In this document: one piece after another, positions 5,729 through 23,091 of the stretch
Layout: every line of letters begins with the position of its first letter
How positions within the stretch are numbered: position 1 is the first letter of the stretch
Virus record (IMG/VR): IMGVR_UViG_3300023109_003069
Location: 1 to 25,537 of that record
Source of the DNA: a virus
Direction: 5' to 3' (one strand)
Length of the DNA: 25,537 bases
Program-made: the position numbers and the translations under genes
The notes under the pieces: generated by a model
The model's database searches: none
Seen by the model: only the letters and a program-made list of their open reading frames with translations
Told to the model about the DNA's origin: nothing

Positions 5729-6009
5729 TGGCTAATATTAGAGTTTCATGGACAAACCCGGCAGATGTCTCCGATCAGGATTCAGTAAAAATATTCCGAG
5801 CAACTGGTGATCAGACAGCTCTTTCGGACGAGGCTTTTCGCACGGCTGCTGGTACTGAAATATATACCGAAACAACCGTCGCGACTGGTACAGACGAGTA
5901 CATCGATCAGAGTGTACCAGCGGGCGAAACTTATACTTATGGAGCATTCTCCTACAACACAGCGGGTTTCGGTCCTGGGGACATCTCCGACACCTCTATA
6001 ACAATATAA
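5728..6009 (+). CDS. Small fibronectin-III-like protein
   Basis: A 93-residue protein that reads as a single FN3/Ig-like beta sandwich. It opens with IRVSWTNPADVSDQDSVKIFRA, the typical 'W-x-x-P ... D-x-V-x-I-Y-R' start of FN3 strands A-C. It ends with YIDQSVPAGETYTYGAFSYNTAGFG, the usual 'D-x-x-V-x-x-G-x-x-Y-x-Y-x-V-x-A-x-N' strand pair. There is no signal peptide or membrane segment. The ATG overlaps the portal stop codon as TAATG, so translation is probably coupled. FN3-like modules in virions usually sit on the capsid surface or tail and bind carbohydrates weakly; a minor capsid decoration role is inferred from position only. An adaptor role cannot be excluded. Confidence 0.65.
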   Translation: MANIRVSWTNPADVSDQDSVKIFRATGDQTALSDEAFRTAAGTEIYTETTVATGTDEYIDQSVPAGETYTYGAFSYNTAGFGPGDISDTSITI

Positions 6010-11882: not shown

Positions 11883-12293
11883 ATGAAAATTATAATAATT
11901 GGAAAAAGAGATCAAATGGGCACAACGCCGGTAATCCGGGTCAAGGGTATGAGTCGTCTGCAATATATCTTTCAATGGGATAAAGATTGCAGGCACTACG
12001 CTTACGAGCCAAAGGATCAACGGGAAGCGGACGACATATTCAGGACGCAGGGTAGATTATACAAGCGCATGTTCTTCTCCGTTCTTATGGATGAGAAAAA
12101 AGAACCCGTGAAGCAGGCTGTAGAATCAGACCACCATTTTATAAAAGAAGAGCCAAAGAAAGAGCTAAAAGAAGAGCCAAAGAAAGAGCTAAAAAAAGAG
12201 CCAAAGAAAGAGCCAAAGAAAGAGCTAAAAAAGAGTAGGGTAAAAGCCAAACCCGTTTTGCAAGCGGTGGAAGAAGAAGCCACTACTGAGTAA
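11883..12293 (+). CDS. Lysine-rich repeat protein downstream of capsid
   Basis: A 136-residue protein. Residues 1-80 form a small mixed domain starting with MKIIIIGKRDQMGTTPVIRV, with YAYEPKDQREADDIFRTQGR in its middle. Residues about 88-117 are an imperfect repeat of the octapeptide EEPKKELK, encoded by 24-base units, followed by a basic region and an acidic end. The repeat should be an extended, charged, flexible tail. Position between capsid and head-tail adaptor is where many phages have small head-completion or capsid-associated proteins, but I do not recognise this one. Its ATG lies seven bases from the terminator's T run and no Shine-Dalgarno is present. Repeat length could vary among relatives. 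Confidence 0.7.
   Translation: MKIIIIGKRDQMGTTPVIRVKGMSRLQYIFQWDKDCRHYAYEPKDQREADDIFRTQGRLYKRMFFSVLMDEKKEPVKQAVESDHHFIKEEPKKELKEEPKKELKKEPKKEPKKELKKSRVKAKPVLQAVEEEATTE
12147..12230 (+). repeat. 24-base coding tandem repeat
   Basis: Two identical 24-base units (12147-12170 and 12171-12194) are followed by a third copy (12195-12230) that has an extra 12-base internal duplication and one changed base near its start. The units encode the charged EEPKKELK motif of the host gene. The period keeps the reading frame, so slippage would lengthen or shorten the tail without a frameshift. Confidence 0.9.
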
Positions 12294-20674: not shown

Positions 20675-21439
20675 ATGAGCACACCAACAGCACAAGTTAC
20701 GATAACGTTGACCTCGAGCATCATAGAGCGAGTGTCTTACAACGGTAGTACTAGAACGACCAGATATCTGGGTTACGCTTTCGATCAAAGATCCAGCTCA
20801 CTTTCCGGCCCGTTCACGAATGAAGACATCACAGCAGTAACCACCAAAGACAACTGCGCCGAGATGTTTTGCGTGAATACGGACATGGAAATCAAGAAAA
20901 CTGACTTGCTTGATTACAACAACCCGAATTTACCACCAAATGCGAGTGATCCATTTGATGATTCGGAGACGGATCACCACGAGACGGTTCAGTATTTCAA
21001 CGGTGAATCTCAAAAAGGTGTTATATGTTCGGAGACGGGTGAGGGGTTTGCTTATCGTGGACGCTATATGTCCGGCCCGTTTGAGCGATCCGTAGCGGGT
21101 GGTGGGGAGGTAAAAAACCCGCTGTATTTTAGAGATGGCTATCTTTCCGTAGCGGAGACAAATTGGTTGCACCTTGGAGACGAGCACTCTGAGAAACAAT
21201 ACTTTCGTACCGACCTGTCTTTCCTCAAAAACTCATACGGCTATCTATGGCTATTCGTGAAAAACGAGAATGGTCAGACCAAAGGGCAATATAAAGGGCG
21301 GATCAAGGATCACATGAAGGTGTTCACCAACCTGCGGGGTCGGTGCTTCAGGATCCAGATGATCATAGCGGGACATCCGCAACTCCCATGGGCTTTGCGG
21401 GAGATGGCCATCGGCCACCTGTACGGCAAATCTTTCTAG
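20675..21439 (+). CDS. Tail/fibre tip protein
   Basis: A 254-residue protein. Its N-terminal half begins AQVTITLTSSIIERVSYNG and includes the acidic stretch DPFDDSETDHHETVQYF. The C-terminal half reads YLWLFVKNENGQTKGQYKGR, then RCFRIQMIIAGHPQLPWALREMAIGHLYG. A 'G-R-x-F-R-x-x-x-x-x-A-x-x-x-x-x-W-x-L-R-x-M-x-I-G-x-x-Y-G' end resembles the last domain of several phage tail proteins in my memory, a jelly roll packed against a partner. It is the last rightward structural gene. Its TAG stop shares CTAG (21436-21439) with the integrase stop on the other strand. Exact role is unresolved. Confidence 0.6.
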   Translation: MSTPTAQVTITLTSSIIERVSYNGSTRTTRYLGYAFDQRSSSLSGPFTNEDITAVTTKDNCAEMFCVNTDMEIKKTDLLDYNNPNLPPNASDPFDDSETDHHETVQYFNGESQKGVICSETGEGFAYRGRYMSGPFERSVAGGGEVKNPLYFRDGYLSVAETNWLHLGDEHSEKQYFRTDLSFLKNSYGYLWLFVKNENGQTKGQYKGRIKDHMKVFTNLRGRCFRIQMIIAGHPQLPWALREMAIGHLYGKSF

Positions 21440-22683
21440 GCCGCCCAACAGGCAAGCATGTCTTTTGAGGGCATTAGCTTGGCGTAGTATTGAGAGGTCA
21501 CGGCCGGGCTTGTATGCCTGAGATAACTCTGAGCGACGTACAACCCCTCGGTTGTGGCCAAGTATGAACCGTAAAGCTTCCTGAGTTCATGCAGAGGGCT
21601 TTGCCTCGTCCATCCAATTGCTCTCATGTCATCTAGCAAGCTCTTCATTGTCTTCTCAGCCTGACGGGCTCGATCGGTTACCAGAAAATCAAAACCGCCC
21701 GATTGCTCTAATATTTTAGACCCAAACCCAGGCTTGCCAGCCGTGTACCCGTCCATGCCGTTCTTGGTTCTGAACTTACCCTCGGATTTGATCAATATGA
21801 CACACCGCTCGTCATCAATATCGAACCAATCTCGTTTGGCGTAGAATATCTCTTTGCGGCGCATACCAAAATGCAAGGCCATTGCCATGATTACGAATTT
21901 GTCGTGATCAGTGGACTCATACCCATTCATCAAATCGAATGTTTTCGTGATCAAGGGAGTCTCGGGAAGGGTGTAACTCTTCTTTACTCGATTGAAAAAG
22001 ATCTCGTTTCTTAAATAACTAAGCCCCTCGAAGCTCCAGCTGTCTGGGTAGTATGCCATGGCGGTATTTGAAAACACGCTCTTGGCATTCTTTAGGAGTG
22101 TGTTGTACGACCTTTTTTTCTCAGCCAATGCAACCACGTCCTTTATACCCTGAACGCTTGCCGCTTTAACATCCCGAATCATTTTCTTAGTGAGCTTCTT
22201 GAGGTGTAGGGCTCTAGCACCAGCGTCCGACAAACCTGTGACCCTGTACAACGCTCTGCGATAGCATTGAAACGTTCGATGGGTTATACCGACCACACTC
22301 TTCTGCGTCTCTAAAAAATCGATTATTTCTCCAAGGGTTGGAGAGCGTAGGACGTCGGTCGCGGGGGCGGGGGCTTCATTACCTTTACTTTTATTCGGGT
22401 TGTATTGGGCCTCCGCGTCTTCCAAAGAATTGAAAAACAGGTATGCATCTATCTCGTCAGCTTTACCTAAAGCGACATCTATGTTGTCGCCTAGATTAAA
22501 ATAAACCGTCTCGCCTTTTCTGATTACGCGAAATGTCCAATGTTTTGCACCCGGGTTTCTTTTAAACACGCGGTTGCCCTTTTTACTTTTTTTACTCTTC
22601 ACAGTGTACCTTTTTTTGACCTTTATGTTATTAGTTTGTGCCCCCAGATATTGTATACCTTTCTGAGGAACGCTAGAAAACAT
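21436..22683 (-). CDS. int: Tyrosine recombinase (phage integrase)
   Basis: A 415-residue protein with a complete tyrosine recombinase catalytic domain. Arg275 lies in GMRRKEI, a likely beta-hairpin Lys is at 303 or 307 (SEGKFRTKN), HxxR is at H365-E-L-R368, His390 lies in YLRHTSPAV, and Tyr399 in TSQYYAK is the nucleophile at the usual nine-residue spacing. Residues 1-75 are very basic, an arm-binding type DNA contact (KSKKSKKGNRVFKRN). Residues about 115-210 are the helical core-binding domain. The enzyme would join attP with a host attB, here probably a tRNA-Tyr gene given the tRNA fragment just upstream. An in-frame TGA six bases before the ATG fixes 22683 as the first possible start. It converges on the last tail gene with a 4-base overlap. 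Confidence 0.92.
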   Translation of the reverse strand: MFSSVPQKGIQYLGAQTNNIKVKKRYTVKSKKSKKGNRVFKRNPGAKHWTFRVIRKGETVYFNLGDNIDVALGKADEIDAYLFFNSLEDAEAQYNPNKSKGNEAPAPATDVLRSPTLGEIIDFLETQKSVVGITHRTFQCYRRALYRVTGLSDAGARALHLKKLTKKMIRDVKAASVQGIKDVVALAEKKRSYNTLLKNAKSVFSNTAMAYYPDSWSFEGLSYLRNEIFFNRVKKSYTLPETPLITKTFDLMNGYESTDHDKFVIMAMALHFGMRRKEIFYAKRDWFDIDDERCVILIKSEGKFRTKNGMDGYTAGKPGFGSKILEQSGGFDFLVTDRARQAEKTMKSLLDDMRAIGWTRQSPLHELRKLYGSYLATTEGLYVAQSYLRHTSPAVTSQYYAKLMPSKDMLACWAA

Positions 22684-22719
22684 GCGTCAACCTACAAGAT
22701 GTTGTGGTTTTTGGGCTAA

Positions 22720-22758
22720 TTTACAGTCCGCATCCTTTAGCCACTTGGATACCCTACC
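22720..22758 (-). other. 5' half of a tRNA-Tyr(GUA) gene; probable attP
   Basis: On the minus strand a 39-base segment reads acceptor strand GGTAGGG, TA, D stem TCC with D loop AAGTGGCTAAA closed by GGA, then T, anticodon stem GCGGA and loop CTGTAAA with anticodon GTA. Stem, loop and spacer lengths match bacterial tRNA-Tyr base for base in layout. After the loop the next five bases (TTAGC) would pair with GCGGA at four of five positions, one as G-U. No long variable arm, T arm (GGTTCGAATCC type) or 3' acceptor (CCCTACC) follows. The integrase start is 37 bases further on. This is best read as the phage attachment site within host tRNA identity, with crossover near the anticodon loop. Confidence 0.75.
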
Positions 22759-22768
22759 TTGCAGTTGA

Positions 22769-22797
22769 TTGACAATGCTTTACAAAATTGTTATTAA
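22769..22797 (+). promoter_or_regulatory. Candidate promoter with internal palindrome, for the 22840 operon
   Basis: A consensus -35 TTGACA (22769-22774) is followed after 17 bases by TATTAA (22792-22797), a fair -10; TAAAAT at 22795-22800 is an alternative. ACAAT (22772-22776) and ATTGT (22787-22791) form an inverted repeat between the two boxes, the usual place for a repressor operator. The first gene starts 43 bases beyond the -10. Confidence 0.5.
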
Positions 22798-22839
22798 AAT
22801 GAGATTAGTGGATGACCTTTATTTGAACCTATTGAGCTT

Positions 22840-23091
22840 ATGGAGTGGTTAAAGAATTCAGCGGAACTTGAAAAACCTTTAATATCGACGTGCGGGGATG
22901 TAGTGGAGGCGTTGGTGGATGAATTGATACCGCAGATAAAACTTGCGGCTTATGAAAACGATGGCTTCGCAGATGTCGAGTGCAAAATAAATATTACGTT
23001 CAAAGATGATACCTTCGAGCTGGTTACGGAAGGTTTTGTCGAGTTCCCGGCTCGCTTGATCAGAGTGAACGCCAAGGAAACAGATGAGTGA
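22840..23091 (+). CDS. Small acidic protein of unknown function
   Basis: An 83-residue acidic protein, first in a two-gene plus-strand unit that diverges from the integrase. Residues 1-40 look helical (ISTCGDVVEALVDELIPQIK). Residues 44-75 look like a beta pair (DVECKINITFKDDTFELVTEG). It is not a recognised family. It overlaps the next gene by 8 bases. Placement between att/int and an HTH protein suggests an early or lysogeny-region gene. Confidence 0.6.
   Translation: MEWLKNSAELEKPLISTCGDVVEALVDELIPQIKLAAYENDGFADVECKINITFKDDTFELVTEGFVEFPARLIRVNAKETDE

Follow-up and report, generated by a model that had tools for sequence, protein, structure and literature searches.

The 5′ half of a tRNA-Tyr gene as a putative attachment site upstream of a phage tyrosine integrase

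The integrase locus and its tRNA-Tyr half

The window analysed here, i.e. the whole stretch of DNA under study, is a linear viral fragment of 25.5 kb. The features that concern us are as follows:

21436–22683, minus strand: tyrosine integrase (int), longest ORF (phrog_1 match, 1.9e-17)
22605–22623, minus strand: candidate P′-arm arm-type site AAGGTCAAAAAAAGGTACA, partner of 22813–22830
22692–22707, minus strand: imperfect palindrome CCACAACATCTTGTAG, conserved in the Tyr-type phages (alignment)
22719–22758, minus strand: putative attP core, nucleotides 1–40 of the host tRNA-Tyr(GUA), with exact matches to host genes and identical in relatives with diverged flanks
22769–22797, plus strand: divergent sigma70-like promoter (TTGACA-17-TATTAA), directed away from the tRNA half and toward the early genes
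22813–22830, minus strand: candidate P-arm arm-type site AGGTTCAAATAAAGGTCA, forming with 22605–22623 a 16-mer direct-repeat pair with 3 mismatches
22840–23091, plus strand: small ORF on the P side of attP, with a similar ORF beside attR in the integrated element described below

The integrase retains the catalytic R, HxxR, H and Y residues (invariant R275/R276, H365, R368, H390 and Y400 in alignment A2), and alignment to relatives points to the GTG at 22602 as the likelier start. Upstream of it, the minus strand from 22758 to 22719 reads GGTAGGGTATCCAAGTGGCTAAAGGATGCGGACTGTAAAT, an exact 40-nt match to positions 1–40 of the tRNA-Tyr(GUA) of Opitutales that runs from the acceptor strand into the anticodon loop. 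An initial annotation of this DNA, made from its letters, had described a minus-strand 5′ half of tRNA-Tyr(GUA) directly upstream of the integrase, with identity ending at or after the anticodon loop. All of this was borne out: 36 bp separate the half from the longest integrase ORF downstream of it, which runs in the same direction, and the identity of the half to the host gene ends just past the anticodon loop, as expected of integration at that loop.

An exact scan of one genome per species (84,980 species) returned 32 matches to the 40-nt half, each in a record whose title names Opitutales, Opitutia, Opitutae or Verrucomicrobia. ARAGORN recovered a complete tRNA-Tyr(GUA) at 30 of the 32, with contig ends cutting the other two. 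The half is real and exact, and chance is excluded. Since exact copies are confined to tRNA-Tyr genes of Opitutales and Verrucomicrobiota, marine Opitutales (Verrucomicrobiota) are the likely hosts of the window phage. Within the 25.5-kb window ARAGORN found no complete tRNA, including the full tRNA-Tyr that the initial annotation had named as a finding that would count against it, and the 40-nt half was unrecognised by Rfam. The remark that the following TTAGC nearly pairs with the anticodon stem did not survive comparison; relatives read TTCGACC or TTTTAGC at the same place, and the pairing was rejected as a conserved feature.

As in the attP/int module of a tyrosine recombinase, the core is identical to the presumed host attB, adjoins int and is flanked by paired arm-type repeats, although the pair is weak in the window (3 mismatches in 16). 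Many phages of the family have a direct repeat on either side of the core, near −84 and +96, with strong exact pairs in several of the tRNA-Leu relatives; the repeats are the same or nearly so within one phage and different between phages, as expected of arm-type integrase sites. At the threshold used, they were not found in L135, L136, L153 and L125. The palindrome at 22692–22707 is a possible accessory-protein site.

Most family sites carry a sigma70-like promoter that reads away from the half, with its −35 box 10–22 bp from it. A conserved block upstream of the half was considered as a tRNA promoter and rejected for most sites, where it is the −35 of this divergent promoter; as a host tRNA leader it was likewise rejected, the block of the Tyr attP being absent from 273 Opitutales genomes (≤3 mismatches). 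Scans for a promoter reading toward the half, longer leaders included, gave no consistent signal or consensus across family sites, and no consistent signal was obtained between core and int. A −10-like TATAAC, TATAAT or TATAGT lies ∼42–54 nt upstream of the half and overlaps the divergent −10 in several phages, making this region a candidate for bidirectional transcription. Elsewhere in the window, the ORF at 11883–12293 encodes a lysine/glutamate-rich tandem repeat of EEPKKEL type.

Related integrases and an element integrated at tRNA-Leu(CAA)

Neither the integrase nor the portal of the window had a tblastn match in 50,697 catalogued phage records, and a single-sequence integrase search of viral contigs gave no matches. 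Alignment-based searches then found relatives, amounting to 38 family integrase loci in viral contigs, with L125 coming from a separate alignment search. A pattern search located the identical tRNA-Tyr half in three viral contigs with diverged flanks, two of these contigs being the same in sequence around the site. Most of the family loci carry at the same place the 5′ half of tRNA-Leu(CAA), while L153 carries that of tRNA-Leu(UAG), and L125 and L171 that of tRNA-Leu(AAG); the core is 40 nt long in every 5′ type examined. The diverged family integrases with Leu 5′ halves are ∼30–35% identical to that of the window. Opitutales genomes contain host genes that match the Leu(CAA), Leu(AAG) and Leu(UAG) halves, except for one difference at a stem position between the Leu(UAG) half and the host copies observed; no full Leu(CAA) tRNA was found in the viral contigs. 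The integrase of L125 (5016–6166) is frameshifted near position 6000, through either sequencing error or decay.

The initial annotation had reasoned that related phages lacking the segment would speak against its reading. Most relatives have a tRNA half at this place, but L149, L159 and L165 have int and no tRNA half or core between the divergent promoter and int; their integrases may work without an attP there or with another site.

A search for prophages in tRNA-Tyr genes with attL and attR, as the same annotation proposed, yielded a mixed result. No copy integrated at tRNA-Tyr was found, and all Tyr-type sites seen are unintegrated attPs. A related element was recovered at tRNA-Leu(CAA), however, and is the only 5′-type integrated element in the genomes searched. 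It occupies 14.3 kb of contig C27 of the Opitutales genome G266 (L249:2261–16565), encodes a family integrase (E = 8e-184) and is bounded by two copies of the 40-bp Leu(CAA) half. At attL, the host leader and host 5′ half are followed by int, which is whole; at attR, element DNA (the P arm) runs into a complete tRNA-Leu(CAA). The 40-bp half is common to the two ends, whose sequences differ outside it. The host leader at attL contains TTGCCAAA, which is also found upstream of tRNA-Leu(CAA) in the Opitutales genome L179, and the right flank holds the same acetyltransferase gene that follows tRNA-Leu(CAA) in other Opitutales. On the attR side, the element DNA resembles the P side of the viral attPs, including a small ORF (L249:16149–16403) that by inspection is similar to the one at 22840–23091 in the window.

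These two copies are the only Leu(CAA) 5′-half matches in G266 (≤1 mismatch), although the assembly may lack part of the genome or a more diverged copy may exist in it. The element thus has a displaced 5′ fragment at one end and a complete tRNA at the other, as in an Islander-type island. From the arrangement of attL and attR it follows that the 5′ half of the working tRNA-Leu(CAA) is supplied by the element and that the native promoter has been separated from the gene. The element encodes Kelch, MORN-repeat and GP88-like ORFs, with no match to the structural proteins of the window. Because the structural genes of the phage are absent, it is possibly a relative, remnant or satellite, distinct from the window phage.

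Proposed integration at tRNA-Tyr and alternative readings

We consider it highly probable (roughly 0.9) that 22719–22758 is an attP core at which the integrase recombines with the 5′ half of a host tRNA-Tyr gene, rebuilding the tRNA from a phage-supplied 5′ half. By analogy with the G266 element at tRNA-Leu(CAA), the window phage would integrate at tRNA-Tyr as follows. The tyrosine integrase would recombine the core with its exact counterpart, the 5′ half of the host tRNA-Tyr(GUA) gene, strand exchange presumably taking place within or close to the anticodon loop. The int-distal end would then consist of phage DNA, the phage-supplied 5′ half and the host 3′ half, restoring a complete gene; the predicted attR reads phage ...CAATCAACTGCAA followed by the complete tRNA-Tyr. 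The int-side end would hold the host leader and promoter, the displaced host 5′ half and int, so that the predicted attL continues from the half into TTAGCCC. The rebuilt tRNA would be transcribed from phage DNA, possibly from the bidirectional −10 region, and the host tRNA leader would face int, an arrangement that suggests transcription of int from the host tRNA promoter. The initial annotation had proposed that the phage supplies both the 5′ end and the promoter. Supply of the 5′ half and separation from the native promoter are seen in the G266 element, but no clear phage promoter reading into the half was found.

As in the T7-like marine cyanophages, integration might instead be an infrequent or short-lived event, in which case the 5′ half would serve sporadic insertion and not stable lysogeny; an essential tRNA gene cut off from its promoter could then help to destabilise the integrated state. 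The scarcity of integrated copies (none of Tyr type, a single 5′-type element in the genomes searched) accords with this, as do T7-like cyanophages with a tRNA-Leu attP, which integrate without stable lysogeny (PMC8776855). Nevertheless, such an element does sit in an assembled genome, and the whole 5′ half, including the D-arm, is unchanged while the flanks diverge, which suggests selection for a working tRNA. We regard rare or transient integration as possible but doubtful.

Two further readings appear very improbable. That the half is a relic of imprecise excision, or a broken phage tRNA gene, with no role in integration, would agree with the failure of ARAGORN and Rfam to recognise a functional tRNA and with the three loci that keep int without a core; yet its place, 40-nt length, repeats and identity are conserved in several lineages of integrases and for four tRNA isoacceptors, and an integrated homologue exists in G266. 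Its position just upstream of int and codirectional with it in phage DNA would suit a regulatory RNA or decoy derived from the tRNA within the leader of the int mRNA, a suggestion we give very little credence, since one clade of the family carries an inverted 3′ half there instead (see below), hence no common sense-strand RNA, and since the position between arm repeats fits an attP.

Known systems and the polarity of the tRNA half

In the usual form of integration at the anticodon loop of a tRNA gene, attP carries the 3′ half and the native promoter is kept. The system described here shares with this textbook form a tyrosine integrase, a crossover that would lie in the anticodon loop and arm-type repeats, but the polarity of the tRNA is opposite, so that the restored gene would lose its native promoter. 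The statement in the initial annotation that phage att sites in tRNA genes normally hold the 3′ part is too strong if taken as near-universal: Islander reports a 3′ tDNA fragment in 3760 islands and a 5′ fragment in 159 (159/3919) (PMC4383910), and for the archaeal pTN3 integrases (Thermococcus, tRNA-Leu) the ∼41 bp common to attP and attB is the 5′ half of the tRNA, including the anticodon (PMC5495485, PMC8371274).

The Islander 5′-fragment islands resemble the G266 element in having a displaced 5′ fragment at one end and a complete tRNA at the other; there, however, the 5′ form is a minority, whereas it is the norm in the phage integrase family studied here, which has also switched to the 3′ form. 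Integration in pTN3 disrupts int and restores an intact tRNA that is separated from its former promoter and expressed from the integrase promoter (PMC5495485, PMC8371274). The use of a 5′ half with the anticodon and the rebuilding of the tRNA away from its native promoter are common to both systems. Unlike in pTN3, where int is split, the core here lies upstream of int and int is whole in G266; and while the integrase promoter expresses the tRNA in pTN3, the strong promoter beside the core here reads away from it. The T7-like marine cyanophages P-SSP7 and S-TIP37 likewise combine an integrase with a perfect tRNA attP and have rare integrated copies (PMC8776855); they differ in an unrelated host and in an attP downstream rather than upstream of int.

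Polarity is not fixed within the family. In four loci forming one nested clade (L146, L148, L150 and L151), the position of the 5′ half is taken by the reverse-complemented 3′ half of tRNA-Leu(UAG), and three more distant integrases from genomes of Opitutales or other Verrucomicrobiota also have inverted 3′ halves: G083, a tRNA-Arg prophage and outgroup whose 54-bp att ends at the anticodon loop; G416, with the 3′ half of tRNA-Arg; and G252, with that of tRNA-Asn at attP. The window attP is not of this classic 3′-half type, the 3′ half being found only in the one nested clade and in the outgroups. In all of these 3′-half sites, too, it is the anticodon-loop end that is turned toward int. At least two changes on the integrase tree are required to account for the 3′ state, and the polarity of the tRNA has therefore switched; the tree has several long branches and is uncertain in its deepest part.

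Attachment sites in tRNA 5′ halves were already known as a minority; what is new is a bacterial phage family that uses 5′ halves systematically, with polarity switches, as judged from the open-licence literature, beyond which earlier bacterial cases may be more numerous. Whether the family routinely swaps promoters with an essential host tRNA gene, such that the tRNA of the lysogen is transcribed only from the phage and the host promoter drives int, with 5′/3′ polarity switching and the anticodon-loop end always toward int, is a proposition to which we give even odds. Related integrases using either half of a tRNA gene constitute a natural experiment on tRNA-targeted integration, and indicate that the orientation of the gene is left free by the integrase, which determines only at which of its two ends the core has the anticodon loop. 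Where the 5′ form is used, transcription of an essential tRNA would rely on phage DNA, which turns host tRNA supply and int expression into testable features of lysogeny. The sites also point to Opitutales (Verrucomicrobiota) as the likely hosts of this uncultured family of marine phages.

Three contigs have features of their own. Contig C48 (1–63814) of G252, an Opitutales MAG, is probably a complete circular phage because its ends overlap, the start matching 63121 onward. In the tRNA-Arg prophage of G083 (C35), the portal gene at 50096–52201 reads through two in-frame TGA codons. Lastly, contig C5 of G008 carries a divergent tRNA-Leu every 5065 bases (4785, 9850 and 14914), which suggests either a tandem array or the multimeric assembly of a small circular element.
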